Shown here: positions 30,704 to 60,729 of the stretch, piece by piece
Numbering within the stretch: position 1 is the first letter of the stretch
Layout of the letters: every line of letters starts with the position of its first letter
Assembly (NCBI GenBank): GCA_030068145.1
Contig: JAPJBO010000462.1
Coordinates: forward strand, 62,001 to 126,000
Length of the DNA: 64,000 nucleotides
Origin: Diplonema papillatum
Lineage: Eukaryota; Euglenozoa; Diplonemea; Diplonemida; Diplonemidae
Direction of reading: 5' to 3'
The notes under the pieces: model-generated
Databases searched by the model: none
What the model was told of the DNA's origin: nothing
What the model saw: only the letters and a program-made list of their open reading frames with translations
Position numbers and translations under genes: made by a program

Positions 30704-32255
30704 CTGCAACGAAGTGCATTTTCAAGGCCATCGAATTCTTCGCGAGGCTCGAGTTGAGCGATGCCGCGCAGGCGAGGGATGTTATGTAAAACTGTATTTG
30801 GTTCGGAATTTCATCGCTCTAACAATAAATGGTTCCTTGATCGCAGAAGGCTGGATGGGCAGGGCTAAAAGTAAATTCAGGTCTGACTGTTTTCTTGTCG
30901 CTTATGCTCAAGCAAGCAAAGCCTTTCGGGGATGGAAGAGAGAAGAAATGTGTAGTTTTCTTGTTGTGACACGTTTGAAGGGCAAACCTGGCCCAGCAGG
31001 CCTCCGTAAATCACGGACGACAGATCAAGCACCAGCGACAGGGCAAGAACGCCGAACTGACTCTGGCTGCCCCACTCGGAAAGAAGCACTGGCACGGCAG
31101 CGTCGAAGACCGCTCGAGGGTTGTCACCGAGGCTGTCAAAAACAACTTGTCCCTGTAGTGATGTGTCTTTGTTCTGAACGGGACGGCCGAGCAACCCCTC
31201 TCTCGAACTGGGTTTTTTCTGCGTCCGTAAAAAAAATATTTTGGGTCCAATCAAAAACACTTTCTCTTCTTGCCGTTCTGCTGTCCATCTTCATTTCAAA
31301 GCACAAGACATATCCAGATCCGGATTCCCACGTCGGCGTTTTGGGCAACGCCAAATGTAACGCACTGATAAGGCTCCAGGATTGCGAAGGACTTGAAGCA
31401 GGCGTGTTTGAAACATACGTCGACGTCGTGCTTCTGTGGTTTCGCGATCTGGCCGAGAATCTGTCGGAACTCGTCCCGCCTCTCCTCCTGGTCCTTCCCG
31501 GCGACGAAGAATGATCGCTGCACCTGAACCAAACCGAGGCCGATGCACATCACAACTGCCGCGATGCGGTTGTTGTAAGGGGACAATACTTGGGAGTCTG
31601 GGAGAATATGCCCGAGCAATGCCGTGATGATCACTGTGAAAGCTTCGGCCACAAGCGTCCCGATAAAAACGGAGGCGGTCGCGTTGGGCATCACAGAGGT
31701 AAGAGCAAAGGTGGTGAAAAAGGAGTGCCCTCCAAGGCTCAGACTGACCACAACGAGCGCGGATACCAGTGTGGCGCCAGCTACGCCGCACGAGGTGGGA
31801 TTATAGAGGGTGGTTTTGCTGACCGGATCCTTCGCTGCCACTGCATCTGAGGTGACGTCTGGCAGCTTAATCACTTCGTACACCTGATTTGCAAAGGAGC
31901 CCCCGCACTTGCCCAGAGGGCCACCGAACGTGGGGTCTTCGGGCTTTCCACCGGCACACGGCTTGGTGCACTTGTCGCTAGGCCCGAGACCATCGCCTTT
32001 TGTGCTACCGCAAAAACACTGGTTCCCGTCCTGCAGTGCGATGTACTTCGTAGTCTGCTCCTTTTGCAGGCAGTGATTCTTGCAACTGAGCACTGTCATG
32101 GTGTCGTCGTCAAACTGGTCCTTTCCAAACTGCCTTCCGGGTGATTTGTCTTTGAAGCAGCCCGAGAAAGCTAGGGAATACTTCGGGAAAGCATCTTCGG
32201 CTTGCACCCCTAGCAGCAAGGTCGTGTATGCGAAGAAATAGCGGATCGGCCTCAT
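30704..32255 (-). CDS. WSC-domain protein with ZIP-like membrane segments (at least 3 exons, 3' end unknown)
   Basis: Exon 1, 32255-31419, begins with ATG and a signal peptide (MRPIRYFFAYTTLLLGVQA). Residues about 28-128 form a WSC domain: SGCFKD, spaced Cys residues, YIALQDGNQCFCG and the final KCGGSFANQVYEV, a carbohydrate-binding fold. After a membrane helix comes LSLGGHSFF and GTLVAEAFTVIITALLGHIL, resembling the His-containing helices of ZIP metal transporters. The donor is GTATGT. Exon 2, 31152-30988 (acceptor CTACAG, donor CAG/GTTTGC), is in phase and adds 55 residues with another membrane helix. A possible exon 3, 30791-30704, adds FYITSLACAASLNSSLAK, also ZIP-like. A surface membrane protein that may move metal ions is the likely product. 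WSC assignment is firm; ZIP is moderate because the usual second His motif is changed. Confidence 0.75.
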
Positions 32256-37819: not shown

Positions 37820-39820
37820 TCAGTGCCAAGATGATTGGCTTGAGGAATCACTGCCGTCATCGCCGCCCAAAACGTCGGTGGCTACATCATCAACTTCGAT
37901 CGGTGACTGGGAACTTCCAGGACCCGGTGTCTGTCTTGCTTCCTCTGCCAGCTTCTCCTCATCCCACCAACAGTTTTCCGGAGGTGTGCGCGGGTGCAAG
38001 TTAGTGTGCACAACACACATTTGGTGCATTTTCTGAGCCAGGAGGCGGTTGCGGCGACCGTGGGAAAGCCACTGCATACTAGAGAATGCGCGTTCCACGT
38101 CCGCAGAACTCGCTGTGATGGCGGTCACCTCTGATGCAACTTTGGCAAGATTGGACGTCCTTGTTCCCGCTACGACTTTCCACCATGCTTCGGGAGACCT
38201 CGTGCAGGCAAGGAGTTCCAGTTCTTCCTTGTCATCGGCGAAGACGCCAGTACCACTCGAAAACTCCAGCAGCTCGGAAGCTGCAGCCACCCCAGCAACC
38301 GACTTGATGTAGGCCTTCGCGATCTTTCGCGTTTCAGGTTCGATGGCGTAGTCCGTGAGGATTCTGAGGGGTGACTTCTCATCTGGTGGCTGCGATGGCT
38401 TTCCAAGTGTCGACCCCATGCGCGGCGTGAGCACAGTTGCGGCACTGATCCAGCCCCCTTCGTGCTTCCGGTATTTTGCGATCCTGTCCTCGATTTTCGC
38501 CTTTACTGCCTGCATTTTCGTCCTCGTGAGTGCGGTAGGCATCGTTCCGGCACTTTCGTCACATGAGGCCTTCACAAACATGAGAGCAGGAATGATGTAG
38601 GCCGCTCGAGCGTTCGTTGACTGCAGCAAACTAACTGCCAGCCCGATAGCTTGCATGAAGGGTTGAAGTGCGACGAATTGGGTCCACATGTTGCCTTCTA
38701 GCAGGGTAGCGATACCAGGGCAGAGAAGACACGCATGCTTGTCTTCTTTCATCAAGAGAAGCGTTACGCGCTCTTCGGCGACTTGCGCCCACGTTTCTGA
38801 CATGGTAGTCCAGCGGGTTACCGCAGGAAGCACAAGCTTCTTGGACCGCGTCGACTTCTCTTCGTACAGTTTCGACAGATACTCCGTGTTTCGAATGCTT
38901 GCAACAACACTTGTTACCTGAGCAGCGACAGGATGGAATTCGTTCGGTGATTCCTTTCCCTTCGACTTGCGAGTGCCAACGCAGTCGTTGGTGCAGCGAG
39001 CGACGCTGTGCGGACCACAGACGAGCGTCTTCATCTTCGGAAAGTTTACTGCAAGTTTCTTTGCTGATGCCACTGCTGTCGAATCGCCGTCCGTCACAAC
39101 GCAGATTGTCTTCTTCAGCAGGTCTTCGTCGCACTGGCGGAGGTGCGAACACAATTCATCCGAAGTGTGGCTCTTGCGGGTCAGTACACCTGCGTCAATT
39201 ATCAGGCTCTGCATCTTGTTGGTTCCGGCAGTTGCCGCGAGAATGGCAAAGACCTTCTCCTTCCGTGCACTCTGCCAAGCGTCGCACTGAATGATGAGTT
39301 GTTCAGCACTGCTCAGCGAAGCGATGAGTGGGTCGGCAACCTCCTTGTAGACTTCGTTTAGGACACGAGTACCGAGTGTGTGCCGGCTTGGCAAGTCAGA
39401 TTTCTTCAGATTCGGCCGTATACTTTGCAGGAGCTGAAGCAATAGCGGATCTTCAACCGTGCTGAACGCGTGTCCGCTGGCGAAGACAAATCTTCCAGTC
39501 GCTTTCTCGAGGTGTGTCTTTTCGCATGCTGTGACGCCGGGAAGGGCTTCTATCCTCCGCTGCTTTGGATCAACAACGCTAGCCCCTGCTGTCGATGCTG
39601 CAGCAGTCGGTAGCTTCCTCTTCTGGCCACACGTGGTGTCACCTGCTTTGGTTTGCACCTCCGGGGTTGCTTTCGTGCACTGTGCCAGATGGGCCCGCAT
39701 CCGAGTTCCGGTCACACAGAAGATGTCCTCTCTGCAGTGATGGCACTTCGCAGCGTCTTTTCCACCCTCGGAAAACGACGTGAAGTGTGCGCGACTCCAG
39801 CATTGTTGACGGCCAGGCAT
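37820..39820 (-). CDS. hAT transposase, BED finger and DUF659 type
   Basis: The first ATG is at 39820 (MPGRQQCWSRAHFTSF); the frame extends further upstream only into the MITE. It gives 666 aa. A BED-type zinc finger (KCHHC, then H and C 20 residues on) lies at about residues 22-50. The central region matches the hAT/DUF659 core: LIIQCDAWQSARKEKVF with the first Asp, then CVVTDGDSTAVASAKKL with the second. The C-terminus has the hAT dimerisation region with SSADVERAFSSM and an Arg-rich follow-up. No stop or frame break is present, so it may be functional. It would bind its own ends and cut and paste the element at 37719-40244. Confidence 0.9.
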   Translation of the reverse strand: MPGRQQCWSRAHFTSFSEGGKDAAKCHHCREDIFCVTGTRMRAHLAQCTKATPEVQTKAGDTTCGQKRKLPTAAASTAGASVVDPKQRRIEALPGVTACEKTHLEKATGRFVFASGHAFSTVEDPLLLQLLQSIRPNLKKSDLPSRHTLGTRVLNEVYKEVADPLIASLSSAEQLIIQCDAWQSARKEKVFAILAATAGTNKMQSLIIDAGVLTRKSHTSDELCSHLRQCDEDLLKKTICVVTDGDSTAVASAKKLAVNFPKMKTLVCGPHSVARCTNDCVGTRKSKGKESPNEFHPVAAQVTSVVASIRNTEYLSKLYEEKSTRSKKLVLPAVTRWTTMSETWAQVAEERVTLLLMKEDKHACLLCPGIATLLEGNMWTQFVALQPFMQAIGLAVSLLQSTNARAAYIIPALMFVKASCDESAGTMPTALTRTKMQAVKAKIEDRIAKYRKHEGGWISAATVLTPRMGSTLGKPSQPPDEKSPLRILTDYAIEPETRKIAKAYIKSVAGVAAASELLEFSSGTGVFADDKEELELLACTRSPEAWWKVVAGTRTSNLAKVASEVTAITASSADVERAFSSMQWLSHGRRNRLLAQKMHQMCVVHTNLHPRTPPENCWWDEEKLAEEARQTPGPGSSQSPIEVDDVATDVLGGDDGSDSSSQSSWH

Positions 39821-39849
39821 GTTAAGTGAGTTTGTGATGTGTGACTTAT

Positions 39850-40062
39850 CATGCAGGGTCAAAACCTTGAGTCTTTTTGGAAATGGCCAAAAAAAAAATT
39901 CCGGAAAAAAAAATGGGTTTTTTGAATTTTAAAAGTTTGGAACAAACTCTGCAGTAATTTTTGAGGAAGTTGAGCAAAAAAAAATGTTTCCAAAAAAAAT
40001 TTTAGGGCTCCATCGGCCCTGCGGGAGCGTTTTAAAAAGACACAAGGTTTTGACCCTGCATG
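39850..40062 (-). mobile_element. MITE family CATGCAGGG, copy a
   Basis: Family description: about 212 bp, ends CATGCAGGGTCAAAACC and inverse, inner 28-bp TIR ending TGTGTCTTTTT. One side then has AAACGCTCCCGCGGGGCC and the other GGCCATTTCC. The centre has TTCCTCAAAAATTACTGCAG and AAAATTCAAAAAACCC. No coding capacity. Strand + here means the CGCTCCCGCGG side comes first. This copy has the TTAT duplication and lies inside the hAT element. Confidence 0.95.
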
Positions 40063-44335: not shown

Positions 44336-44744
44336 CTTCGGTTAGAGTCGCGTAGAGCATTTCCATTACAAAAAACTTCGGTTAGAGTCGCAAGCCATTT
44401 TCATTGAGAAAAACTTCGGTTAGAGTCGCGTAGAGCATTTCCATTACAAAAAACTTCGGTTAGAGTCGCAAGCCATTTTCATTGAGAAAAACTTCGGTTA
44501 GAGTCGCGTAGAGCATTTCCACTACAAAAAACTTCGGTTAGAGTCGCAAGCCATTTTCATTGAGAAAAACTTCGGTTAGAGTCGCGTAGAGCATTTCCAT
44601 TACAAAAAACTTCGGTTAGAGTCGCAAGCCATTTTCATTGAGAAAAACTTCGGTTAGAGTCGCGTAGAGCATTTCCATTACAAAAAACTTCGGTTAGAGT
44701 CGCAAGCCATTTTCATTGAGAAAAACTTCGGTTAGAGTCGCGTA
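44336..44744. repeat. 78-bp dimeric tandem repeat
   Basis: Five copies of a 78-79-bp unit made of two related 39-bp halves. Both begin CTTCGGTTAGAGTCGC, then one has GTAGAGCATTTCCATTAC and the other AAGCCATTTTCATTGAG. The alternation is strict, as in a young dimer-based satellite. Confidence 0.95.
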
Positions 44745-44745
44745 G

Positions 44746-44953
44746 CATGCAGGGTCAAAACCTTGTGTCTTTTTAAAACGCTCCCGCGGGGCCGATGGAG
44801 CCCTAAAAATTTTTTTGGAAAAAAAAAAATTTGCTCAACTTCCTCAAAAATTACTGCAGAGTTTGTTCCAAACTTTTAAAATTCAAAAAACCCATTTTTT
44901 TTCCGGAATTTTTTTTTTGGCCATTTCCAAAAAGACACAAGGTTTTGACCCTG
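44746..44953 (+). mobile_element. MITE copy f, right end truncated
   Basis: Starts CATGCAGGG directly after the 78-bp array and ends GACCCTG without GCATG, joining GCGGCGGTCCC. Confidence 0.9.
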
Positions 44954-44974
44954 GCGGCGGTCCCGATACCGTCT

Positions 44975-45171
44975 CATGAGACCTTATCGATACCTTTTTT
45001 GCCCATTTCTGGGTTGCGCCCTTATCTCGACCTTTTTGGTCCGTTTTTGGGTTGCGCCCTTATCTCGACCTTTTTGAGATGCGCCCTTATCTCTACCTTT
45101 TTGAGCTGCGCCCTTATCTCTACCTTTTTTGCCCATTTTTGGCTTGTTCCCTTATCTCGACCTTTTTTGGG
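44975..45171. repeat. CCCTTATCTCGACCTTTTT repeats
   Basis: Four to five units of 40-55 bp with GCCCTTATCTCGACCTTTTT and GCCCATTTTTGGGTTGC. The inverse (AAAAAAGGTMGAGATAAGGG) occurs three times at 46903-46983. Confidence 0.85.
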
Positions 45172-45268
45172 GGAAGTTGAGCAATTTTTTTTTTTGCCAA
45201 AATTTTTTTTTGGGGTCCATCGGCCCCGCGGGAGCGTTTTAAAAGACACAAGGTTTTGACCCTGCATG
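45172..45268 (-). mobile_element. MITE copy g, half
   Basis: Only the CGCTCCCGCGG-side half remains (GAAGTTGAGCA to GCATG, then ATATGACCCC). It is broken in the MITE centre by the 44975-45171 repeats. Confidence 0.85.
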
Positions 45269-45409
45269 ATATGACCCCTATATGAAACCTATATGACCCC
45301 CATGTGACCCCTATATGACCCCTATAAATTTTTTCGGATTTTTTCCGGGAAATTTTTTTTCGGATTTTTTTTTTGGCCCGAAAATTTTTCGGAATTTTTC
45401 GGATTTTTT

Positions 45410-46530
45410 TTTGGGTCACCTACCTTAGGGGCCTAAGAACAATTTTTAATGACCTTAGGGGCCTAATCGGGGACCTTTAGGTCCTCAAAATGATTTACAA
45501 ATTTGTTGCCCATTGGGAACTTGTGCCGAAAATGTACTTCTCAAAAAAAAAAAACTCCAAAAAATTTCCAAAAAAATTTCCAAAAAATTTCCAGAAAAAT
45601 TTCCAAAAAATTTCCAAAAATTTTTCCACAAACTCACAGGTGGGACGTCAAAGGAAGAGAAGACCACTGCTGATTGCTGCACACCACGTAAAACACACAT
45701 AACAATGATTGAATTGACAAGCAAAGTGAATTTGCGTTCAAAGTGCAGAAAGCCGATGAACTTCCCCCAAGGCTCCACAAGGGTCATCCCACCCTATTCC
45801 GTTTTGTTAATGCCTGATCCATATGAGATTTGAGAGTGCAAGTTCACTTAGAGAACCGAGGTTTCGGAGGGAATAGCACTCGACAGGCAAACACACCAGG
45901 AATTCAGGGACTGTCTCTTTGTCTGCTCTGGGGCATTATTCTTCTACCGGCCGGTTCTTCAACCTGCACCGACCTGGAGCAAGTTTTCGAACTTTCTGGA
46001 TGTTTTTCGGGCACCCTGTTGTGTTGGGTGCTAGTTGTGGGGTTGTTTTGTGGCTGCATTTTCGGTTCCTGAAGGATTTTAGAGAATTGCACTCTATACA
46101 GGTGAACCCTCCTGTTTTCACATTCTGTGACTGTGGCCGTTCTTCGAGCCTAATGTTCGCGTCCTGCTTAACCCCCGCCTCCTGTTGTTGGTTCTGTGTT
46201 CTTTCAAATTTTTTTCGAAATTTTTTTCGAAATTTTTTTCGAAATTTTTTTCGAAATTTTTTGACAAGTACATTTTCGGCACAATTCCCAATGGACAACA
46301 AATTTTAAATCATTTTGAGGACCTAAAGGCCCCAAAATGCATTTTTCGAATTGTTGACAAATTTTGCCCAGTATTTTGTGCAGGCATTGTACTTAGCGAT
46401 TTTTGAGCATGTTCGTATTTTTCCCCCGGGAAAAACAAATTTTTAAATCATTTTGAGGACCTAAAGGTCCCCGATTAGGCCCCTAAGGTCATTTAAATTT
46501 GTTCCTAGGCCCCTAAGGTACTTTTCTCTT
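45410..46530. repeat. Inverted-repeat structure with ACCTTAGGGGCCTAA
   Basis: The left arm (about 45415-45610) contains GACCTTAGGGGCCTAATCGG, TTTAGGTCCTCAAAATGATT and TGTGCCGAAAATGTACTT, then AAATTTCC units. Its inverse appears on the right at about 46195-46520, where the part AAATCATTTTGAGGACCTAA is present twice. The middle (45620-46190) is ordinary DNA without a recognised gene. It looks like a non-autonomous element or an inverted duplication. Confidence 0.75.
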
Positions 46531-46539
46531 TTTTTTTTT

Positions 46540-46875
46540 TGGCCCAAAAATTTTTCGGAATTTTTTCGGATTTTTTTTTTGGCCCGAAAATTTTTCGGAC
46601 TTTTTTCGGATTTTTTTTTTGGCCCAAAAATTTTTCGGAATTTTTTCGGATTTTTTTTTTGGCCCAAAAATTTTTCGGAATTTTTTCGGATTTTTTTTTT
46701 TGGCCCAAAAATTTTTCGGAATTTTTTCGGATTTTTTTTTTTTGGCCCAAAAATTTTTCGGAATTTTTTCGGATTTTTTTTTTGGCCCAAAATTTTTTCG
46801 GAATTTTTTCGGATTTTTTTTTTGGCCCAAAAATTTTTCGGAATTTTTTCGGATTTTTTTTTTGGCCCAAAAATA
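46540..46875. repeat. 40-bp tandem repeat TTTTTCGGAATTTTTTCGGA
   Basis: Eight units of 40-41 bp (GGCCCAAAAATTTTTCGGAA then TTTTTTCGGATTTTTTTTTT). Two related units are at 45330-45412. Confidence 0.95.
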
Positions 46876-46984
46876 TTTTCGGGAAAATTTGGTCACAATC
46901 CCAAAAAAGGTAGAGATAAGGGCGCAACCCCCAAAAAAGGTAGAGATAAGGGCGCAACCCCCAAAAAAGGTCGAGATAAGGGCA

Positions 46985-47095
46985 AAAATTACCGCAGAGT
47001 TTGTTCCAAAATTTTAAAATTCAAAAAACCCATTTTTTTTCTGGAAATAAAATTTTGGCCATTTCCAAAAAGACACAAGGTTCTGACCCTGCATG
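46985..47095 (+). mobile_element. MITE copy h, half
   Basis: Only the GGCCATTTCC-side half remains (AAAAATTACCGCAGAG to GCATG, then ATAT). It starts at the same centre position where copy g is broken. Confidence 0.85.
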
Positions 47096-47152
47096 ATATA
47101 GGGGTCACATGGGGGTCATATAGGGGTCATATAGGGGTCATATAGGGGTCCT
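47096..47152. repeat. ATATAGGGGTC repeats
   Basis: Five units of the inverse of the ATATGACCCC satellite, between MITE half h and the 251-bp satellite. Confidence 0.9.
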
Positions 47153-47154
47153 AT

Positions 47155-50100
47155 GGAGGCAGACGACTGTTTAGTGTTGCAAACGAATCACGAACACACT
47201 GAAATGGGTCTTCCACACACTGAAATCAAGTGCTCCTAAGCAGACGAACTGTGAGTGTTGCAAACGAAACGTAAATGAACTGAAATAGGGACCTCATACG
47301 CTGAAACCGACTGCGAACAATCTGATCGATCTCTCTTAATAAAAGATTAAAGCGCCGAAGGCGCAACCACCCAATCAAACTTTGCACACACAATTGCGAC
47401 TGTTCCAAGGCAGACGGCTGTTTAGTGTTGCAAACGAAACATGAACACGCTGAAATGGGTCTTCCACACACTGAAATCAAGTGCTCCTAAGCAGACGAAC
47501 TGTGAGTGTTGCAAACGAAACGTAAATGAACTGAAATAGGGACCTCATACGCTGAAATCGACTGCGAACAATCTGATCGATCTCTCTTAATAAAAGATTA
47601 AAGCGCCGAAGGCGCAACCACCCAATCAAACTTTGCACACGCAATTGCGACTGTTCCAAGGCAGACGGCTGTTTAGTGTTGCAAACGAATCACGAACACA
47701 CTGAAATGGGTCTTCCACACACTGAAATCAAGTGCTCCTAAGCAGACGAACTGTGAGTGTTGCAAACGAAACGTAAATGAACTGAAATAGGGACCTCATA
47801 CGCTGAAACCGACTGCGAACAATCTGATCGATCTCTCTTAATAAAAGATTAAAGCGCCGAAGGCGCAACCACCCAATCAAACTTTGCACACGCAATTGCG
47901 ACTGTTCCAAGGCAGACGGCTGTTTAGTGTTGCAAACGAAACATGAACACGCTGAAATGGGTCTTCCACACACTGAAATCAAGTGCTCCTAAGCAGACGA
48001 ACTGTGAGTGTTGCAAACGAAACGTAAATGAACTGAAATAGGGACCTCATACGCTGAAATCGACTGCGAACAATCTGATCGATCTCTCTTAATAAAAGAT
48101 TAAAGCGCCGAAGGCGCAACCACCCAATCAAACTTTGCACACGCAATTGCGACTGTTCCAAGGCAGACGGCTGTTTAGTGTTGCAAACGAATCACGAACA
48201 CACTGAAATGGGTCTTCCACACACTGAAATCAAGTGCTCCTAAGCAGACGAACTGTGAGTGTTGCAAACGAAACGTAAATGAACTGAAATAGGGACCTCA
48301 TACGCTGAAATCGACTGCGAACAATCTGATCGATCTCTCTTAATAAAAGATTAAAGCGCCGAAGGCGCAACCACCCAATCAAACTTTGCACACGCAATTG
48401 CGACTGTTCCAAGGCAGACGGCTGTTTAGTGTTGCAAACGAATCACGAACACACTGAAATGGGTCTTCCACACACTGAAATCAAGTGCTCCTAAGCAGAC
48501 GAACTGTGAGTGTTGCAAACGAAACGTAAATGAACTGAAATAGGGACCTCATACGCTGAAATCGACTGCGAACAATCTGATCGATCTCTCTTAATAAAAG
48601 ATTAAAGCGCCGAAGGCGCAACCACCCAATCAAACTTTGCACACGCAATTGCGACTGTTCCAAGGCAGACGGCTGTTTAGTGTTGCAAACGAATCACGAG
48701 CACACTGAAATGGGTCTTCCACACACTGAAATCAAGTGCTCCTAAGCAGACGAACTGTGAGTGTTGCAAACGAAACGTAAATGAACTGAAATAGGGACCT
48801 CATACACTGAAATCGACTGCGAACAATCTGATCGATCTCTCTTAATAAAAGATTAAAGCGCCGAAGGCGCAACCACCCAATCAAACTTTGCACACGCAAT
48901 TGCGACTGTTCCAAGGCAGACGGCTGTTTAGTGTTGCAAACGAAACATAAACACGCTGAAATGGGTCTTCCACACACTGAAATCAAGTGCTCCTAAGCAG
49001 ACGAACTGTGAGTGTTGCAAACGAAACGTAAATGAACTGAAATAGGGACCTCATACGCTGAAATCGACTGCGAACAATCTGATCGATCTCTCTTAATAAA
49101 AGATTAAAGCGCCGAAGGCGCAACCACCCAATCAAACTTTGCACACGCAATTGCGACTGTTCCAAGGCAGACGGCTGTTTAGTGTTGCAAACGAATCACG
49201 AACACACTGAAATGGGTCTTCCACACACTGAAATCAAGTGCTCCTAAGCAGACGAACTGTGAGTGTTGCAAACGAAACGTAAATGAACTGAAATAGGGAC
49301 CTCATACGCTGAAATCGACTGCGAACAATCTGATCGATCTCTCTTAATAAAAGATTAAAGCGCCGAAGGCGCAACCACCCAATCCAACTTTGCACACGCA
49401 ATTGCGACTGTTCCAAGGCAGACGGCTGTTTAGTGTTGCAAACGAAACATAAACACGCTGAAATGGGTCTTCCACACACTGAAATCAAGTGCTCCTAAGC
49501 AGACGAACTGTGAGTGTTGCAAACGAAACGTAAATGAACTGAAATAGGGACCTCATACGCTGAAATCGACTGCGAACAATCTGATCGATCTCTCTTAATA
49601 AAAGATTAAAGCGCCGAAGGCGCAACCACCCAATCAAACTTTGCACACGCAATTGCGACTGTTCCAAGGCAGACGGCTGTTTAGTGTTGCAAACGAATCA
49701 CGAACACACTGAAATGGGTCTTCCACACACTGAAATCAAGTGCTCCTAAGCAGACGAACTGTGAGTGTTGCAAACGAAACGTAAATGAACTGAAATAGGG
49801 ACCTCATACGCTGAAATCGACTGCGAACAATCTGATCGATCTCTCTTAATAAAAGATTAAAGCGCCGAAGGCGCAACCACCCAATCAAACTTTGCACACG
49901 CAATTGCGACTGTTCCAAGGCAGACGGCTGTTTAGTGTTGCAAACGAATCACGAACACACTGAAATGGGTCTTCCACACACTGAAATCAAGTGCTCCTAA
50001 GCAGACGAACTGTGAGTGTTGCAAACGAAACGTAAATGAACTGAAATAGGGACCTCATACGCTGAAATCGACTGCGAACAATCTGATCGATCTCTCTTAA

Positions 50101-50860
50101 TAAAAGATTAAAGCGCCGAAGGCGCAACCACCCAATCAAACTTTGCACACGCAATTGCGACTGTTCCAAGGCAGACGGCTGTTTAGTGTTGCAAACGAAA
50201 CATGAACACGCTGAAATGGGTCTTCCACACACTGAAATCAAGTGCTCCTAAGCAGACGAACTGTGAGTGTTGCAAACGAAACGTAAATGAACTGAAATAG
50301 GGACCTCATACGCTGAAATCGACTGCGAACAATCTGATCGATCTCTCTTAATAAAAGATTAAAGCGCCGAAGGCGCAACCACCCAATCAAACTTTGCACA
50401 CGCAATTGCGACTGTTCCAAGGCAGACGGCTGTTTAGTGTTGCAAACGAATCATGAACACGCTGAAATGGGTCTTCCACACACTGAAATCAAGTGCTCCT
50501 AAGCAGACGAACTGTGAGTGTTGCAAACGAAACGTAAATGAACTGAAATAGGGACCTCATACGCTGAAATCGACTGCGAACAATCTGATCGATCTCTCTT
50601 AATAAAAGATTAAAGCGCCGAAGGCGCAACCACCCAATCCAACTTTGCACACGCAATTGCGACTGTTCCAAGGCAGACGGCTGTTTAGTGTTGCAAACGA
50701 AACATGAACACGCTGAAATGGGTCTTCCACACACTGAAATCAAGTGCTCCTAAGCAGACGAACTGTGAGTGTTGCAAACGAAACGTAAATGAACTGAAAT
50801 AGGGACCTCATACGCTGAAATCGACTGCGAACAATCTGATCGATCTCAATAAAAGATTAA
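47155..50860. repeat. 251-bp satellite, about 15 tandem units
   Basis: Equivalent points recur every 251 bp (47226, 47477, 47728 and so on to 50489). Each unit has GCAGACGGCTGTTTAGTG, CTGAAATGGGTCTTCCACAC, ATCTGATCGATCTCTCTTAA and GCGCCGAAGGCGCAACCACC, the last with an inverted GCGCCGAAGGCGC core. Units fall into two types (AATCACGAACACACTG or AAACATGAACACGCTG) that often alternate. The period is not a multiple of three, so the repeated 60-84-codon frames are not genes. Confidence 0.97.
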
Positions 50861-51072
50861 CATGCAGGGTCAAAACCTTGTGTCTTTTTGATAGTGGCAA
50901 AAAAAAAATTTCCGGAAAAAAATTGGGGTTTTTGAATTTTAAAAGTTTGGAACAAACTCTGCAGTAATTTTTGAGGAAGTTGAGCAAAATTTTTTTTTTC
51001 CAAAAAAATTTTTAGGGCTCCATCGGCCCCGCGGGAGCGTTTTAAAAAGACACAAGGTTTTGACCCTGCATG
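50861..51072 (-). mobile_element. MITE copy i
   Basis: Full length, TTAA duplication, inserted in a 251-bp unit between GATTAA and AGCGCCG. Confidence 0.95.
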
Positions 51073-51326
51073 TTAAAGCGCCGAAGGCGCAACCACCCAA
51101 TCAAACTTTGCACACGCAATTGCGACTGTTCCAAGGCAGACGGCTGTTTAGTGTTGCAAACGAATCACGAACACACTGAAATGGGTCTTCCACACACTGA
51201 AATCAAGTGCTCCTAAGCAGACGAACTGTGAGTGTTGCAAACGAAAGTAAATGAACTGACATAGGGACCTCATACGCTGAAATCGACTGCGAACAATCTG
51301 ATCGATCTCTCTTAATGAAAGATTAA
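51073..51326. repeat. Satellite unit between two MITEs
   Basis: One 251-bp satellite unit, slightly diverged (CGAAAGTAAATGAACTGACA), starting and ending at the same TTAA. Confidence 0.9.
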
Positions 51327-51539
51327 CATGCAGGGTCAAAACCTTGTGTCTTTTTGAAAAATGGCCAAAAAAAAAGTTTCGGAAAAAAAATGGGCTTTTT
51401 GAATTTTAAAAGCTTGGAACAAACTCTGCAGCAATTTTTGAGGAAGTTGAGCAAATTTTTTTTTTTCCAAATTTTTTTTTAGGGCTCCATCGGCCCCGCG
51501 GGAGCGTTTTAAAAAGACACAAGGTTTTGACCCTGCATG
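51327..51539 (-). mobile_element. MITE copy j
   Basis: Full length, TTAA duplication, same orientation and same satellite position as copy i, but about ten differences from it. Confidence 0.95.
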
Positions 51540-52115
51540 TTAAAGCGCCGAAGGCGCAACCACCCATTCAAACCTTGCACACGCGAGATCTTATGAATCA
51601 ACGAAAAGCGAGCGAAAAAGAGCGTGTAAAACCCGGGAAAAGTCAGAAAGACAGTCGGCGAAAAACTTGGAAAAAAGACGGGAAAATACGACCATCAAGT
51701 GCTCCAAGGCCAGACGACTGTATAGTGTTGCAAACGAATCGCAAGCACACTGAAGTTGGGACTCCCACACTGAAATCAAGTGCTCCTAGGCAGACGAACT
51801 GTTAGTGTTGCGAACGAATCGCAAACACGCTGAGATCGGGACCCCACACACTGAAATCGACTGAGATCAACCTGAGCGATCTCTCTTAATAAAAGATTCA
51901 AGCGCCGAAGGCGCAACCACCCAATCCGACTTTGTACACACGAAACAGAGATAAAAGTGAGCAAAGAAGAGCGTAAACCCGGAGGACGTCGAAAGAAACA
52001 GTCGGCGGAAAACTTGGAAAAAAGTGGGGAAAACACGCTCCAAGACCAGACGACGAGCCTATGGACATCGTGGTAGGTCATGCTCAACGACCGAAGGTTC
52101 GCCGCACGGTTCACG
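51540..52115. repeat. Diverged satellite copies
   Basis: One to two older relatives of the 251-bp unit with added sequence (AAAGCGAGCGAAAAAGAGCG, GTCGGCGAAAAACTTGG). The same older form occurs inverted at 59100-60300. Confidence 0.8.
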
Positions 52116-52119
52116 GTAT

Positions 52120-52332
52120 CATGCAGGGTCAAAACCTTGTGTCTTTTTAAAACGCTCCCGCAGGGCCGATGGAGCCCTAAAAATTTTTTTGGAAAAAAAA
52201 AATTTTGCTCAACTTCCTCAAAAATTACTGCAGAGTTTGTTCCAAACTTTTAAAATTCAAAAAACCCAATTTTTTTCTGGAAATTTTTTTTTTTGCCATT
52301 TTCAAAAAGACACAAGGTTTTGACCCTGCATG
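52120..52332 (+). mobile_element. MITE copy k
   Basis: Full length, GTAT duplication (52116-52119 and 52333-52336). It lies just upstream of the first Merlin gene. Confidence 0.95.
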
Positions 52333-54571
52333 GTATGACTCCCGTTCTTTTTACTTGGCGCACACAGTTTTTGCTAATGCACAGATCTTAAGAAATCTTT
52401 ACTAAGAAAGATTGCCAACTTCAGTGTTTCATTGCAACGTTAACCACTCGTTCTTGGAGGAAACCGCCCTGAAGCAAGTGACTTCAATGTGGGTAAAACT
52501 ATCAGAGCGTCAGGGCAACCCCCATCTTGTTCGTATCTCGACCCGTTTCCATCACAGGCCAACAGGACGGTGGCCTTGCAGCCCAACGTAGGCTGCTGTA
52601 CACCGGCTCGAAGCAGCAGAGGCGCCGGTGCAAGCCGGAAGTAGAGTTCGGACCGATTCTGGCCGACCCAGGAGCACTTGTCATCTTCTTGATGACGTAC
52701 GACATCCTGCCTCGCCAAGTCACGTGCACGTGTGGCAGGACGTTGAAGACGTGGATACTGGGTGGAAGGGATGGGGCATGCCAGAAGGGGTGGCCGTACT
52801 GGCATTGTGTTTGCCGGGACAAGGGAGTCTCTGGTGGCACATGGGTTGCAGAGACTCTGCGGGTCCTGACACCAAGCCCGACTCCCGCAAAGAAATCCAC
52901 AGCCCGAGAGACTACCGAGAAAGAACAAAAAGAGTGCGAAAAAAAAGCAAACGCGGCAAGAATGAAAATTACGTGCGCGCAGTTTTCCACCAAGCTGTGG
53001 GCGTTTTTTACCGGGGCCAAGGATACAACGGCCAACACCCTTTTTTTTAACAGTAAAACGAACCACGCGAGCCTCAGCCGCTGCTTTACAAAAATTGCAA
53101 AGGACGATGTTCGCAAGACCGAGGCGCAATTCCTCCCGCTTGGTGGTCCCGGCCGCATACTCGAATTAGACGAGTTTTCGATCGGGCACCAAAGCAGAGG
53201 CACAGGCAAGGATCGTGAGTTTTGTTACTTGCGATACATCGGGATTGTAGAACGGGGGGCCTCGTTCTTCGTGGTGCGTGAACTGCCAGCAAAGTGGCAG
53301 AGTCTCCTGGACAAACCGTCGAGTTGCCGTCGGGGATGGGAAACTTTACAAACCCACCCTCGTTGAAAAAACTCGTGATCCCTCCTCCTCCTCCGATCTC
53401 AAATGCAGAGTTGAGAACCATTCTCGATGAAGGGATCGTTGAGCTAGGTACATCAGAAGCCCCCCTGATGTTAACAACCGACGGTGCCCAGGCATACCGG
53501 AGCCTTTTGGATCCTCTATCGCCAAACTTCTACTGGAATGATGTAGAGGAATCCAAAACAAAGGTTCGTTATGCCTGGGTCAACCACGGAAAGGAGGAGT
53601 GGACGAGCAAGTGGACGGTCTGGTTGCTAACCGACGAATTTTCGAGGGAGGTTCACAACCACGAGACCGACCTCTTACAGGCAATCCACAAAGGAGATCT
53701 GCAAGGAAAGCATACAGAATCAATCAAACGAAACTATGTGGAAAAGAATTTTTTGGCAGGGACCCAGAAGGGGGACGGCACCTGGGGCAATTTAAAGAAA
53801 GTCATCAAGGAACGTTGTGCCACAACTGCGACTAAGTACCGCGCGCTTTGGCTCGCGGAGTGGAAGATGATCAAAGGCGACAAACGCGACATCTTTCACG
53901 AAGGCTTGGTTGCTGTGGGTGAAGCTTTCGAGCGGGCCGCACACGAAAGAGATGTAGCCAAGCTTAAGCTAAGGGTGCAAACGTTGTCGGCTAAGACTCA
54001 GCGTATGACGCAGAAAAAGCGTTCATATGCGGATCTGGAAGAAGAGAACCGCCGCCTGCGTGCCGAGATAGCTGTGCCTGGCACACCTCAGTCTTCTGTC
54101 CTCACTTCTTTCCCACTAGGAGGCCCAGATTCCCGTGCGGTCAGTGCTGAGTCTGTTAGTTCATCTTTTCGGGTCTTGGCAGAAATACCACTCCAAGCAG
54201 AGACACAACCAACTGTAGTCGGCGACAATGTGCTGGAACTTGACGAGACAGCAAAACGAGCAAAGGCTGAGATAGAGAGCCTGGATAAATTCATCAGAGA
54301 GGTTGGGCTGACCGGAGGTGAGAGGCCGGCCACAGTTTCCGCTCCGTCAGTTCCACAGCACGAGGGGTCCAAAACACCCAAGCGGAAGTCTGGGAGCTGG
54401 TCAGTGTCACTGGAATCCTGCCCACCCCTGACACCTAGGACAGAAGCCCGCTGGGACGACATGTTCGCCGCGCGTCACCACTTAGAAACGGCGGACAGCT
54501 CCGTCCTTTTGCCCGACCCTGCCAACGTCAGTACAGCGGCCAGTAGTCCGCACCAAGAAGCAGAGGGCCCT

Positions 54572-54848
54572 GGCATGTGTAAAGTATGCGTAGCATACCT
54601 ATACTTAACATTGAACCGCCCAAAATCGTGGTTCAATGTTAAGTATAGGTAATTACCTATACTTAACATTGAACCGCAAAAATCGCGGTTCAATGTTAAG
54701 TATAGGTAATTACCTATACTTAACGCTGAACCCATACCTATACTTAACATTGAACCACAAAAATCACGGTTCAATGTTAAGTATAGGTAATTACCTATAC
54801 TTAACGCTGAACCACCAAAAACCATGGTTCAGAGTTAAGTATAGGGAA
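54572..54848. repeat. Left terminal repeat, tandem hairpins
   Basis: Four palindromes of 50-55 bp (TACCTATACTTAACATTGAA, a short loop and the inverse), separated by AATTACC. It mirrors 57673-57953. Confidence 0.92.
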
Positions 54849-54849
54849 T

Positions 54850-54979
54850 GAAAACTTGGGTTGAAAATTTTGTGTCAAAAATTGTAGATTTGAATTTTTT
54901 TGGGTTGAATTTGTTGTCAAAAATTTGGGTTGAAAACTTGGGTTGAAATTTTTGGGTTAAAATTTGGGTTCAAAATTTT

Positions 54980-55021
<42 letters not shown>

Positions 55022-55250
55022 ACTGGGGCAAACCCGCTCTGATCCACGCCTAGTGTCATGCGTGGGGACAAGGGTGACCAGTTTTCTGTCTAGGACCCTG
55101 TGAGGACCCTGACCCTGTACGGACCCCGTACGGACCCCGTACGGACCCCGTACGGACCCCGTACGGACCCCGTACGGACCCCGTACGGACCCCGTACGGA
55201 CCCCGTACGGACCCCGTACGGACCCCGTACGGACCCCGTACCCCACAGAC
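54850..55250. repeat. Upstream region with GGGTTGAAAATTTTG, (TG)n and GTACGGACCCC arrays
   Basis: Contains irregular AAATTTGGGTTGAAAA units (54850-54985), (GT)18 at 54983-55018, AACTGGGGCAAACCC, and about 11 copies of GTACGGACCCC (55116-55240). The last two features also occur beside the hAT fossil at 43380-43500. Location just before the gene suggests a promoter or transposase-binding role; this is inference. Confidence 0.85.
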
Positions 55251-55356
55251 CCCAGACCTGTGTTTTGCCAACTAGTATACCTGTCATCACTAAAACCAAC
55301 CACTATTCATCTTGAAACCACCAGGAATACACTTGAGAAAAAGCAACAAAACAAAC

Positions 55357-57309
55357 ATGTTTGCCCTCTTTGGGTTGCTGATGTTCCTGGCCTGGCTGCC
55401 AGGTGGTGAAGCAGCTAATGGAAGGGGAATGAAAAGAAGGCATCCAGACCCAGCTGGTCCACCTCCTTTGCAACTCCCCCTGGCTGAAGGTGTTGCACTG
55501 TCAAGGGTCAAAAAAGAAGAAGAAGAAGACGATGAAGAAGAAGAAGACGATGAGCCTGTCCCTGTTGCAAAACACAGGCAGAGAGCAAAGCAACGCAAAG
55601 TAAGCTCTGTTGCCATGAAGAAGAAGGAGAAGACAGAAGCCTACAGCGGTGTGTTCCGGAAACGGGTTGAAGCAAAGCCGAAATTTGGAGTTCTGCAGCT
55701 CATCCGGCAGGGAGATGCTGCAATGGCAGAAAAACTGCAGGAGTACGGAATCATACCTGCTGTCACCTGCAAGTGTGGCAGGGAACTGACTAACATGGTT
55801 TGGAAAGGAGCAAACACCACCCGGCAGCTCAACTGGCCTGTCTTCTTTTGCAAGCACTGTCACCTATCGTTCTCAACAGCAGCTATTCTCAGCACAGCTC
55901 TTGGCATATCAGACAAAGGAGGCCCACTCAAGGTCACTCTTGGTGACTTTTTCTGCTTGGTACTTGGGTTTGTTTTTGTTGCCAAAAAAGCATTGACACA
56001 CGCACTTTGTTCGTTTACTCGCCAGACCGTCTGTAAATGGGAAGCAGGATTCAAGTGCATTGTTGGTGGTGAGGTTGAGCAAATGGAAGCTGCAAACCTT
56101 CCTTTGGGAGGTCCTGGGGCAATAATTGAGATTGATGAGTTCTCAATTGGGGGTAGAGTGGTGAAGGACAAGACAGGAAAACCAGTTGGATATGAATACC
56201 TGCGTTTTGTGGGTATTGTTGTCAGGGGCACCCCCTACTTCTTAATTCGTGAGCTACCCCGGAAGGTGCAAAAACTTGTCAACCCTGATGACACTGTAGC
56301 AAGTCCATCAGGACACAAGGACTTTACCAACAAAAAAGGACACCCTGTTGCGCCACCACCACCCCCGATTTCAAAGGAGGAGTTCAAAGCCCTCCTTGAT
56401 GAGGAGGTTTTGGAAATTGGAACCCCAGAAAACCCGTTGTGCATTGCTACAGACGGTGCTGCCACTTATCGTTCAATGCTTGATCCAGCATCGGCTTCGT
56501 TCTACTGGGGGGAACACAAGCACTGTGTGAACTATGCTTGGGTTAACCATGGGAAGGAAGAATGGTGCAAAGTTGTTGAAGATGATGACACCCCTCCTGT
56601 TGAAAACTGCCTTGCAGAGACATGTGTTGCAGAAATCCTTTCGAAGGTGTCTGAGCCTTCTGAACCTGGTTGCCCCACTGCTGCAGGGGGGAACTTCTCA
56701 CCCATGTACCGGGACAAGAAGTGGATTACAGGTACCCAGAAGGCAGATGGTTTGTGGAAGCATCTTAAGACTACTCTTAAAACCAAAAACTGCAAGAACC
56801 GCAGCAAACCATCTGAGATTCTGATGAATCAGTGGAGGCTGATGAACACAGGTCTTGACCTAGTGCACCTTTTTCTCTGTGCTTTGGGGAAAAAGATTTC
56901 ACAGATGGAACTGGTGGTCCAGGCTGAAGCTACTGAGGTAGAACAACAAGCTGTTGAGTTGCCACCACAGCCTGACACCTTGCTGCAGCTGCTGGCACAG
57001 CCCGGCATGTGTGACCAGATGCTATCCCAGCCTGGGGTGCGTGACATGTTGATGCAAAGACTTGCCCAGGAAAAGCCTGAGTCTGATGATGAAGGCAGCC
57101 AAGAGAGCCCAATTGTTGACCCACAACAAAATGTGGACAGCAGCCAGTACAATCCTTTTGTATTGCCTGCAACCCAAAGGGAGGAAGACAATGATGACCA
57201 GCCTAGTGTCCCAATCTTTGTTCAGCCACAAGGACAGCCACAGAACCAAGGAGCTGTGTACAACCCATTTTCTGGTCGCAGGAGGCTGCAGTTGAGAAGA
57301 CCACAATGA
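55357..57309 (+). CDS. Merlin-like (ISXO2/IS1595-type) transposase 2, intact
   Basis: The frame is open from 55312. The first ATG at 55357 gives 650 aa; an ATG at 55429 (MKRRHPDPAG) is an alternative that avoids a hydrophobic start (MFALFGLLMFLAWLPGGEA), odd for a nuclear enzyme. An acidic then basic stretch (EEEEDDEEEEDDE, KHRQRAKQRK) serves as a likely nuclear signal. Zinc motif: CKCGREL then WPVFFCKHC. Catalytic core: IEIDEFSIGG (D260), IATDGAATYR (D366), AWVNHGKEEW, and GTQKADGLWKHLKT (D464 at the third acidic position). The tail is Gln/Pro-rich. There are no frame breaks, and the flanking element has perfect ends and duplication, so recent activity is plausible. It should cut at the element ends in the nucleus. 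Confidence 0.93.
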   Translation: MFALFGLLMFLAWLPGGEAANGRGMKRRHPDPAGPPPLQLPLAEGVALSRVKKEEEEDDEEEEDDEPVPVAKHRQRAKQRKVSSVAMKKKEKTEAYSGVFRKRVEAKPKFGVLQLIRQGDAAMAEKLQEYGIIPAVTCKCGRELTNMVWKGANTTRQLNWPVFFCKHCHLSFSTAAILSTALGISDKGGPLKVTLGDFFCLVLGFVFVAKKALTHALCSFTRQTVCKWEAGFKCIVGGEVEQMEAANLPLGGPGAIIEIDEFSIGGRVVKDKTGKPVGYEYLRFVGIVVRGTPYFLIRELPRKVQKLVNPDDTVASPSGHKDFTNKKGHPVAPPPPPISKEEFKALLDEEVLEIGTPENPLCIATDGAATYRSMLDPASASFYWGEHKHCVNYAWVNHGKEEWCKVVEDDDTPPVENCLAETCVAEILSKVSEPSEPGCPTAAGGNFSPMYRDKKWITGTQKADGLWKHLKTTLKTKNCKNRSKPSEILMNQWRLMNTGLDLVHLFLCALGKKISQMELVVQAEATEVEQQAVELPPQPDTLLQLLAQPGMCDQMLSQPGVRDMLMQRLAQEKPESDDEGSQESPIVDPQQNVDSSQYNPFVLPATQREEDNDDQPSVPIFVQPQGQPQNQGAVYNPFSGRRRLQLRRPQ

Positions 57310-57672
57310 TTCTTTATTTTTTTCCTTTTCTTCCTCCCCTGTTCATTCTGTTCAGAATGGGTGTTTCTTAGCACCATCCCTGATCTGCAGTAAAAAAATA
57401 CCAAAAAAAAAAAAACACATTGAGACAAAAAAAATACCAAAAAAAACAAAAAAAAACAGAAAAAGGGATCCTCTCCCCACCAAAAAAAACCAAAAAAAAC
57501 CTTAAAAAGAGAGGGGTGGAGATTAGGGGGGCTGGCTATGCCGCAAGTCCTCGACACTCCACCTGAAAAAAAAAAACGCGCCACGTAGTCTACCACCCTC
57601 TTGAGGCTCTGGTGGTGAGGAAATGTCTACCATGCAGGGTCAAAACCTTGTGTCTTGTCATGCTACACAATC
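57310..57672. other. 3' region of the Merlin element
   Basis: Shows A-rich simple sequence (AAAAAAATACCAAAAAAAAC and similar, 57395-57510) and no gene. A 26-bp MITE end lies at 57631-57656. Confidence 0.7.
57631..57656 (+). mobile_element. MITE scrap (copy l)
   Basis: Only the terminal 26 bp (CATGCAGGGTCAAAACCTTG then TGTCTT) of the CATGCAGGG family, without the rest. Confidence 0.8.
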
Positions 57673-57953
57673 AATTACCTATACTTAACGCTGAACCATG
57701 GTTTTTGGTGGTTCAGTGTTAAGTATAGGTAATTACCTATACTTAACATTGAACCACCCAAAATCGCGGTTCAATGTTAAGTATAGGTATGGGTTCAGCG
57801 TTAAGTATAGGTAATTACCTATACTTAACATTGAACCGCCCAAAATCACGGTTCAATGTTAAGTATAGGTAATTACCTATACTTAACATTGAACCACGAT
57901 TTTGGGCGGTTCAATGTTAAGTATAGGTATGCTACGCATACTTTACACATGCC
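57673..57953. repeat. Right terminal repeat, tandem hairpins
   Basis: Inverse of 54572-54848, with one extra hairpin or half-hairpin compared with the left side. Confidence 0.92.
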
Positions 57954-58089
57954 AGGGCCCTGCCCCCCAAGTGGACCCTGAGCTGCGACAGTGACTGCTC
58001 CGCCCCTCCGCTCTGACGATCACCGGAAAGCACGAGCCCTCGAAGAAAAGTAAGAACGTCGAACTTAGAAAAACAAGTTGTCACTGTAA

Positions 58090-58300
58090 CATGCAGGGTC
58101 AAAACCTTGTGTCTTTTTGAAAATGGCAAAAAAAAATTTCCGGAAAAAAAATGGGATTTTTGAATTTTAAAAATTTGGAACAAACTCTGCAGTAATTTTT
58201 GATAAAGTTGAGCCAAAATTTTTTTTCCCAACTTTTTTTTTTGGGGTCCATCGGCTCCGCGGGAGCGTTTTAAAAAGACACAAGGTTTTGACCCTGCATG
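58090..58300 (-). mobile_element. MITE copy m
   Basis: Full length, GTAA duplication (58086-58089 and 58301-58304). Confidence 0.95.
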
Positions 58301-58304
58301 GTAA

Positions 58305-59040
58305 CAAGTCTTGAAGAAAGGAGATAAACGTAGAGTTGTCAACAATGAAAGCAAAAAGGCAGCCTTCGTCATCGGCCTTCGTCATTCTCTCAGCTATGTC
58401 GTGTCCACTGGCTCAGAGGACGAAAAACAAGCCGCCAACCCAAGAAGAACGAAAGTCGTAGTTCGTGTCTGTAACTGTTGACCCACCCAGGACCCAAGAA
58501 GAACGAAAGACGTAGTTTATGTCTGTAAAAGAAGTCACTGTCAACCCACCAGCCTGGTCCAGAGGACGAAAACCAAGCCCCCAACCCAGGACCCAATGTC
58601 TGTAAAACAAGTCTCCATGTTTACCCGAGCCTCACAGGAAGCAATCCAGAGAGGCAGGATTCTGTTCCAACACTAAACTAAGATTCCTCCCACCCTTCCT
58701 CGTCTTGACATCACATCTTTTCTCCCCAGTTGAACAGCTTCGTAAAAGCAACTCCTTCTTCGCTACTCGCTATGCTACACTACATTCATTATTTCTGCCA
58801 CACGCTCGATAGCACAAACAAAGAAATACATAGTTACTCACTTTTCCACACTTTTGTTCTTGTTGCGCAGCCAGCTACGATGAAGCAGGACAAGCCGGTT
58901 TGTAGGCTACAAGTGCTCCATTCGCTTGGAGGATGGTAAACCAACCCCAACTCCACCACACAGGAATGTGAACAGAGAAATAAACGCTAGACAACACCTC
59001 CACATCGCAAACAGCGCCGGCGATGGAGTCTTGTGGCAGC
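58305..59040. other. No gene; imperfect repeats
   Basis: AGAGGACGAAAAMCAAGCC, CAAGAAGAACGAAAG and GACCCACCCAGGACCCA recur two to three times at 58410-58600. No exon seen. Confidence 0.6.
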
Positions 59041-60540
59041 TACAGGTACTATTTTGACTTCTTCTGGGTTTCCACGCTCTTTTTCGCTCGCTTTTTCGCT
59101 GATTCATAAGATCTCTGTTTCGTGTGTACAAAGTCGGATTGGGTGGTTGCGCCTTCGGCGCTTGAATCTTTTATTAAGAGAGATCGCTCAGGTTGTTCAC
59201 AGTCGATTTCAGTGTGTGGGGTCCCAATTTCAGTGTGTTTGCGATTCGTTCGCAACACTAACAGTTCGTCTGCCTAGGAGCACTTGATTTCAGTGTGTGG
59301 GAGTCCCAACTTCAGCGTGTTTGTGATTCGTTTGCAACATTAAACTGTCGTCTGGCCTTGAAGCACTTGAAGGTCGTTTGAGTGTCGGGGCAGCACAACC
59401 CTGATTCGTGGGCTACAAGCGGTGTTCGCATCCACTCGCTTGGAGGATGAAACCCAACCCATCACCACACAGGAATGTTGGAAGCAGAGAAGCCGCACCA
59501 GAAGCGGTATGGGAGTCATTGCCGATCTGTGGAAGGTTCAGGTACTTTTTGAAGTGCACTTTTCGCTGATACAATATGCAAGAACCATACAGGACATTGA
59601 AACAGCCTCGGAAACGTGCCGGCCTTAGTTCTTGTTGGCTGATCAGTGGTATGCCGTAGCATCTTTTCGTGCACTTTCCCGCTGATTCCCTGTTGTCGTG
59701 TACAAAGTCGGATTGGGTGGTTGCGCCTTCGGCGCTTCAATCTTTTATCAAGAGAGATCGCTCAGGTTGTGCTCAGTCGATTTCAGTGTGTGAGGTCCCA
59801 ATCTCAGCGTGTTTGCGATTCGTTCGCAACACTAACAGTTCGTCTGCCTAGGAGCACTTGATTTCAGTGTGTGGGAGTCCCAACTTCAGCGTGTTTGCGA
59901 TTCGTTTGCAACACTATACAGTCGTCTGGCCTTGGAGCACCTGCATCTCGTGCTTTCCCCCGACGGGGTTTCCGACTTGTTCCGGTTTTACAAGCTACTT
60001 TTTGCTCGCTTTTCGTTGATTCATAAGATCTCTGTTTCGTGTGTACAAAGTTGGATTGGGTGGTTGCGCCTTCGGCGCTTAAATATTTTATTAAGAGAGA
60101 TCGCTCAGGTTGTTCTCAGTCGATTTCAGTGTGTGGGGTCCCAATCTCAGCGTGTTTGCGATTCGTTTGCAACACTAACAGTTCGTCTGCCTAGGAGCAC
60201 TTGATTTCAGTGTGTGGGAGTCCCAACTTCAGCGTGTTTGCGATTCGTTTGCAACACTAAACAGTCGTCTGGCCTTGAAGCCCTTGAAGGTCGTTTGAGT
60301 GTCGGGGCAGCACAACCCTGATTCGTGGTTGGAAGCGGAGAAGCCACCCCCAGAAGCGGTATGGGAGTCATTGCCGATCTGTGGAAGGTACTTTTTGAAG
60401 TGCACTTTGCGCTACAATATGCAAAAACCATACAGGACATTGAAACAGCCTCGGAAACGTGCCGGCCTTGGTTCTTGTTGGCTAAACAGTGGTATGCCGT
60501 ATACTTGAGCTCAGCGTGTTTGTGATCTGTTTGCAAGTGC
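59040..60540. repeat. Diverged, inverted relatives of the 251-bp satellite
   Basis: Three blocks (about 59110-59370, 59690-59945, 60025-60280) contain GGTTGCGCCTTCGGCGCTT, TTTTATTAAGAGAGATCGCT and GATTTCAGTGTGTGG, the inverse of the main satellite with about 10-20 % change. They are separated by TGGGAGTCATTGCCGATCTG and CATACAGGACATTGAAACAG segments that are also repeated (59510-59620 and 60360-60470). Confidence 0.85.
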
Positions 60541-60729
60541 TCAAGTGCAAACTGCTACTATTACGGCCGTGAAGCGCACACCGGACACAAAGCAAGACGA
60601 CCGCATGACACGACACGTGCAAAGAGTTCTAAGGTCGATAGCGGCTTTGTGCAGTATCGTCACAAGCGCCTGGTCTTTTTTAGCCACTCGCCCAACCCAC
60701 TCACTCACCCACCCACACCAATCCACCCC

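Follow-up and report, generated by a model that had tools for sequence, protein, structure and literature searches.

The window, the whole stretch of 64,000 bp analyzed here from Diplonema papillatum (GenBank assembly GCA_030068145.1, contig JAPJBO010000462.1, positions 62,001–126,000), contained a DNA transposon of 3,382 bp at positions 54572–57953, located between two copies of the 8-mer AGGGCCCT and inside the transposase gene of a larger element (Table 1). The inverted ends of the inner element started with GGCATGTGTAAAGTATGCG and were 93% identical (261 of 280 columns), and its transposase frame, at 55357–57306, encoded 650 aa with no stop. Elsewhere in the window, a 680-aa open frame on the minus strand (37823–39862) contained a hAT dimerisation domain (E 7.6e-08), and another minus-strand open frame (31299–32255) contained a WSC domain (E 9.1e-13).

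Table 1. Features of the nested transposons, in coordinates of the window.
Feature	Position	Strand	Basis
Outer (host) transposon copy containing the inner one; starts GGCGGCGGTCCCGATA, right end missing	44953..60658	+	last similarity to C211 near 60658
Site where three other host copies contain ~360 bp, among them the exon 1 start codon, that the window copy lacks	52038..52048	+	
MITE-like repeat at the putative splice donor of the host transposase	52120..52332	.	
Host transposase, putative exon 2, as far as the insertion; three other copies lack its 7-bp deletion near 53306	52558..54571	+	
Left target-site duplication AGGGCCCT	54564..54571	.	directly outside element end; single copy in three empty sites
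Inner transposon, 3,382 bp	54572..57953	+	
Left terminal inverted repeat, series of ~58-bp palindromes	54572..54849	+	
11-bp tandem array GACCCCGTACG, length varies among copies	55111..55241	.	
Inner transposase, 650 aa and stop	55357..57309	+	
Codons of the signal-peptide-like start, residues 1–21	55357..55419	+	sequence; dN/dS; kept in sister families
Right terminal inverted repeat	57674..57953	-	
Right target-site duplication AGGGCCCT	57954..57961	.	directly outside element end; single copy in three empty sites
Host transposase frame, last ten codons and stop	57962..57994	+	joined-flank frame

The host frame read ...GAG GGC CCT up to position 54571, with a codon boundary at the end of the left duplication, and resumed at 57962, after the right duplication, for ten codons before a TGA at 57992–57994. 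These boundaries and the continuation of the frame agree with the preliminary description of the locus, which had also recognized the inner transposase as intact. Since AGGGCCCT is its own reverse complement, the window alone would equally accommodate an 8-mer belonging to the element. The 8 bp were nevertheless identified as a target-site duplication, and a place within the element was ruled out, because other copies of the inner element were flanked by other 8-mers and because empty host sites held a single AGGGCCCT. These empty sites were found in all three further host copies (C1520, C211, and C25), located at other places in the assembly, each with the same bases on either side of one AGGGCCCT and with no insert. 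Both the empty site and several near-identical copies of the inner element, which the preliminary description had proposed to look for, were thus present, and the flanking 8 bp were not constant among the copies. It is highly improbable that AGGGCCCT belongs to the element ends, or that the nesting resulted from segmental duplication or an assembly error without any transposition. The palindrome would extend the inverted repeat perfectly, and two of the insertions were each assembled in two or more contigs (C711/C2889 and C1068/C1746), as such an origin would allow, but the varying 8-mers and the three empty sites argue against it, and two of the empty-site host copies (C25 and C211) had their own, different duplications and are therefore independent insertions.

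The three further long host copies, obtained from a search with the host sequence, showed 99% identity. The outer element, with ends starting GGCGGCGGTCCCGATA, was flanked on both sides by CTCGGCGA in C25, where it was 8,232 bp long, and by TGGGCCAT in C211, where the last bases of the right end were slightly different; contig C1520 stopped short of the right end of its host copy. Because the host copies occur in different genomic contexts and, in C25 and C211, between duplications of their own, the host is likewise a transposon, similar in general build to the inner one. In the window, it is broken in four ways besides the insertion, through the loss of ~360 bp, a MITE-like repeat, a 7-bp deletion and a missing right end, for which no exact-pattern match was found in the rest of the window or in the next 5 kb. 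The inner insertion itself cost the host transposase only its last ten codons. Among the other host copies, C25 also had a frame break, and C211 and C1520 had an open stretch of 711 codons. The earlier view of a recent insertion into a relative was borne out by the duplication, the empty sites and the 33% identity of the inner and outer transposases over 484 columns, except that the host gene is also broken independently of it. The nested insertion is by itself ordinary, though documented unusually well. The MITE-like repeat (~216 bp, ends CATGCAGGGTCAAAACC) was abundant, occurring at 52120–52332 with GTAT on both sides, at 58088–58303, at 44742–44953 and at many other places in the window and in related loci. 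In L039 (minus strand), such a repeat was located inside a related transposase frame, which stayed open through it.

The search for further copies covered the 271-Mb assembly (2,910 contigs), with only the best candidates scored. Among the matches listed, there were eight full-length copies of the inner element, with 97–100% identity, at seven sites. Six of these sites were flanked by AGGGCCCT, GTTGGACT, AAGAAGCA, TCTTTGAA, TTCGGTGT, and GTCTCTTA, respectively, the GTCTCTTA site being found in two contigs; the seventh was that in C148. Searching for the terminus pattern with up to two mismatches yielded 60 termini, and 12 distinct two-ended sites were obtained from fetched flanks, with ACAAGGTT, ACCCCAGA, TCAGGGGT, ATTGTTGT, and CTTCTTCT as further 8-mers. 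A perfect 8-bp duplication was read directly at 11 of the 12 two-ended sites, and at the twelfth (C148) when the site was read as a composite. The full copy in C148 had unlike 8-mers at its own two ends; TGTCTCGG was present both at its left end (271860) and at an additional right end (280969) (C148:271860-280969; L004, L098), which explains the lack of a matching duplication at the copy itself. What moved may have been a composite unit (macro transposition), made up of the full copy, the additional right end and several kilobases of intervening DNA.

Several other loci were rearranged or needed separate treatment. Two right-type ends in C834, with the complementary 8-mers CATGGTAA and TTACCATG, were each treated as a one-ended site. 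C711 and C2889 seemed to be inverted relative to each other, but this was rejected, as L007 was merely given in the other strand. The copy in C1253 (L035) was rearranged, with two right-hand parts in inverted order, and was still located between two copies of TCAGGGGT. In C931 (L031, L032), a member of the inner family was located inside a sister-family transposase with ACCCCAGA on both sides, and this arrangement occurred again 9,035 bp along the contig, sharing its left flank with the first, as though it had been duplicated.

Sequence divergence among the copies revealed recent multiplication of the inner family. The window copy differed from the copies L002, L004, and L003 at 3, 4, and 6 positions, respectively, over 3,332–3,370 aligned positions, and from the rest at up to 14; its private substitutions among ten aligned copies numbered at most two, adjacent to each other and beside the tandem array. 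The single insertion assembled in both C711 and C2889 differed between these contigs at 4 of 3,282 positions, so that the inner copies are about as similar as two assembled versions of one locus. The 650-aa frame was kept in at least ten assembled copies at eight sites (the best 68 of 633 candidates being scored), and four of ten full-frame copies reached the identical-protein score. The frame is also under constraint, with core dN/dS values between sister families of 0.10–0.14 (six pairs). The insertion is recent and the inner family probably active, and we infer from these sequence data that it may still be moving at present.

Both ends of the inner element consisted of runs of near-perfect ~58-bp palindromes, with nine occurrences of TACCTATACTTAAC and eight of GTTAAGTATAGGTA in the element, and the left end as single-stranded DNA had a predicted fold of -96 kcal/mol vs. 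-22.5 for shuffles (z = -20). The palindromic repeats are putative transposase-binding sites. In the proposed mechanism, the transposase would bind these repeated sites in the long ends and cut the element out by a cut-and-paste chemistry that three conserved aspartates would perform, after which the excised element would be joined to staggered target cuts 8 bp apart; filling in of these cuts would then produce the 8-bp duplication.

Searches of Pfam, NCBIfam, and PHROGs gave no meaningful match to the proteins. The DDE_Tnp_IS1595 model (PF12762) matched neither the proteins nor their cores, and no match was found in the whole genome at E-values up to 10, in a search whose control was detected in 1 of 14 genomes. 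No relatives were found in plasmids, viral contigs or prokaryote contigs, and a sequence search of the PDB gave nothing of note (best E 0.035). The structure model (AlphaFold, single sequence) was unusable, with a mean pLDDT of 38.8.

Profile comparison was more informative. Six family members compared by hhalign with nine annotated IS1595 transposases (11 were fetched and 2 left out of the alignment) gave a probability of 95.6, an E-value of 1.2e-8 (for a single comparison) and a score of 71.2, whereas the reversed control scored 12.9 and 100 column shuffles reached at most 29.1; the probability was 93.7 when 16 IS1595 sequences were used. When IS1595 sequences were used singly, 12 of the 16 scored above the best of 13 negatives (19.07) and four did not, with a probability >50 for only two, both from Acidiphilium; one other transposase family, ISAs1, stood among these negatives, with a score of 18.05. 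The profile alignment spanned zinc-ribbon-like cysteines as well as the first two aspartate motifs; its end, at residue 402, fell short of the putative third acidic residue. Residues D260, D366, D464, and K471 were invariant in the six members. D464, in the motif TQKxDGxWxxLK, lies beyond the profile alignment and was paired by visual inspection with the IES-W region of IS1595 members, and the third acidic residue is apparently D. Cysteines C138, C140, C165, and C168 were invariant in five members and aligned to the IS1595 zinc ribbon, forming a putative zinc-ribbon-like motif.

Homology to IS1595 in the wide clan sense is supported by this profile comparison. An origin of the transposase in another DDE/D superfamily (hAT, Mutator-like or undescribed), the likeness to IS1595 being convergent or spurious, is unlikely. 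It would accord with the absence of a PF12762 match in Pfam, with the low scores of most single IS1595 members and with the long repeated ends, which are known from Mutator-like elements too; it does not sit well with a profile score so far above the controls across the zinc-ribbon-like part together with the first two aspartate motifs. Moreover, the hAT C-terminal dimerisation domain was not matched in the inner transposase by the same Pfam library that detects one at 37823–39862 of the window. The name Merlin, used for both elements in the preliminary description, fared less well than the relationship behind it: the family fails the usual domain test, and the profile comparison supports a distant relationship to IS1595. 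Given the lack of a Pfam or NCBIfam match, the zinc-ribbon-like cysteines and the apparent D as third acidic residue, its membership of Merlin proper is unproven, and the family was filed as a distant lineage of the IS1595/Merlin clan.

The inner protein started with a signal-peptide-like segment (MFALFGLLMFLAWLPGGEAANG), a feature also found at the starts of three sister families (MLALLGVLLFLLTWTPGCEAAN, MKMLVLILLLLFLVWIPGCEAAE, and MLALFGLLLFFLTWVPECEAAN). In the outer family (MQAAVLLLFLLLVLCIHGAPAEE) and the L020 family (MSLAQLIAAMAILLACDAEARK), the hydrophobic segment was located on an upstream open stretch resembling a separate first exon; in the outer family, removal of a putative 226-nt GT-AG intron would place it in frame with the remainder of the protein. 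Altogether, the segment was found in six of the seven related families examined, with none in the 1.5-kb flank of the L008 family. Each hydrophobic start preceded a PP[LV]xLxxxEG motif, then an acidic stretch and a basic HxQRxKxR cluster. Codons 1–21 had dN/dS values of 0.12–0.48 (six pairs, with few changes), which are below 1 yet indicate less constraint than in the core. The structure model placed a helix at residues 2–12, although the model was unreliable overall (mean pLDDT 38.8). A signal-peptide-like segment is odd for a nuclear enzyme, and none of the papers listed in our literature search described a signal peptide on a transposase. Tentatively, and with a good deal of doubt, these transposases might be made with a cleavable secretory signal peptide, and control of transposition might then involve routing of the enzyme into the secretory pathway, or a decision between this pathway and the nucleus. 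If confirmed, such a conserved signal peptide on an enzyme of mobile DNA would represent new biology.

The surroundings of the inner family were screened with the family profile at 34 sites, 12 two-ended and 22 one-ended (five with only 350 bp of flank), leaving 7 of the 60 termini outside the screen. A transposase frame of the same superfamily was found at or abutting four sites (the window, C711/C2889, C931, and C701:49085); at C834:52417, part of such a gene was located no more than 700 bp away, though not at the site. At C711/C2889 and C931, the joined flanks formed one open frame across the site. If 1% is assumed as the base rate, four of 34 sites in or abutting a related transposase gives P = 0.00036, and three of 33, when the window is dropped, P = 0.0044. 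The landing excess in related transposase genes is suggestive but not proven. That the inner family prefers such genes, so that the nesting was targeted and not due to chance, appears rather unlikely: the base rate is an assumption, with P = 0.028 for three of 33 at 2%, and the candidate counts for superfamily genes are loose (633, of which 68 were scored, and 778, of which 61 were scored). Furthermore, insertions in dead repeats survive better, the insertion positions within genes differ, and the test was devised post hoc, once the data had been seen.

Judged from translations, some of the other sites fell within a tyrosine-recombinase-like frame, LINE-endonuclease-like frames or the MITE-like repeat. 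An endonuclease-like LINE frame on the minus strand of L105 (C602:48320-49050) contained DVEQNPGP, which resembles a 2A peptide.

Overall, the locus very probably reflects a single insertion of a young, intact, autonomous transposon of a distant IS1595/Merlin-like lineage into an older, otherwise decayed copy of a related transposon. According to Lopes et al. (2021), the Merlins described so far have D-D-E catalytic residues without an N-terminal zinc domain, inverted repeats of 24–462 bp, ends starting 5'-GG and target-site duplications of 8 or 9 bp (PMC8101967). The inner family has in common with Merlin the 8-bp duplications, a single transposase gene, internal tandem repeats and aspartate motifs matching IS1595 (PMC8101967). 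Ends starting with GG were also found here, in the inner element (GGCATGTG..., with inverted repeats of ~280 bp at 93%, inside the range given for Merlin) and in the outer one (GGCGGCGG...). Compared with those Merlins, the inner family differs in lacking a DDE_Tnp_IS1595 match, in its zinc-ribbon-like cysteines and apparent third D, and in a transposase of 650 aa with a signal-peptide-like start.

Divergence of this kind has a precedent in Sy.m_F1 of Symbiodinium microadriaticum, a divergent family that the same authors accept as Merlin despite a very weak domain match (2e-01) (PMC8101967). Compared by description only, it shares with the inner family roughly its size class (2.57 kb in Sy.m_F1), complex repeats towards the 5' end, the very weak domain match and varying duplications that show recent movement, whereas a conserved DDE motif is reported there (PMC8101967). 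With bacterial IS1595 insertion sequences, for which 8-bp duplications are described (PMC8101967), the inner family shares these duplications and, by the profile match, the zinc-ribbon-like cysteines and first two aspartate motifs. It differs from them in being eukaryotic, in a protein about twice as long and in its long palindromic ends. The lineage has many families in this genome, yet is invisible to the domain model that was used for mapping Merlin across eukaryotes. Its combination of Merlin-like ends with IS1595-like zinc-ribbon cysteines implies that surveys may have missed a branch.
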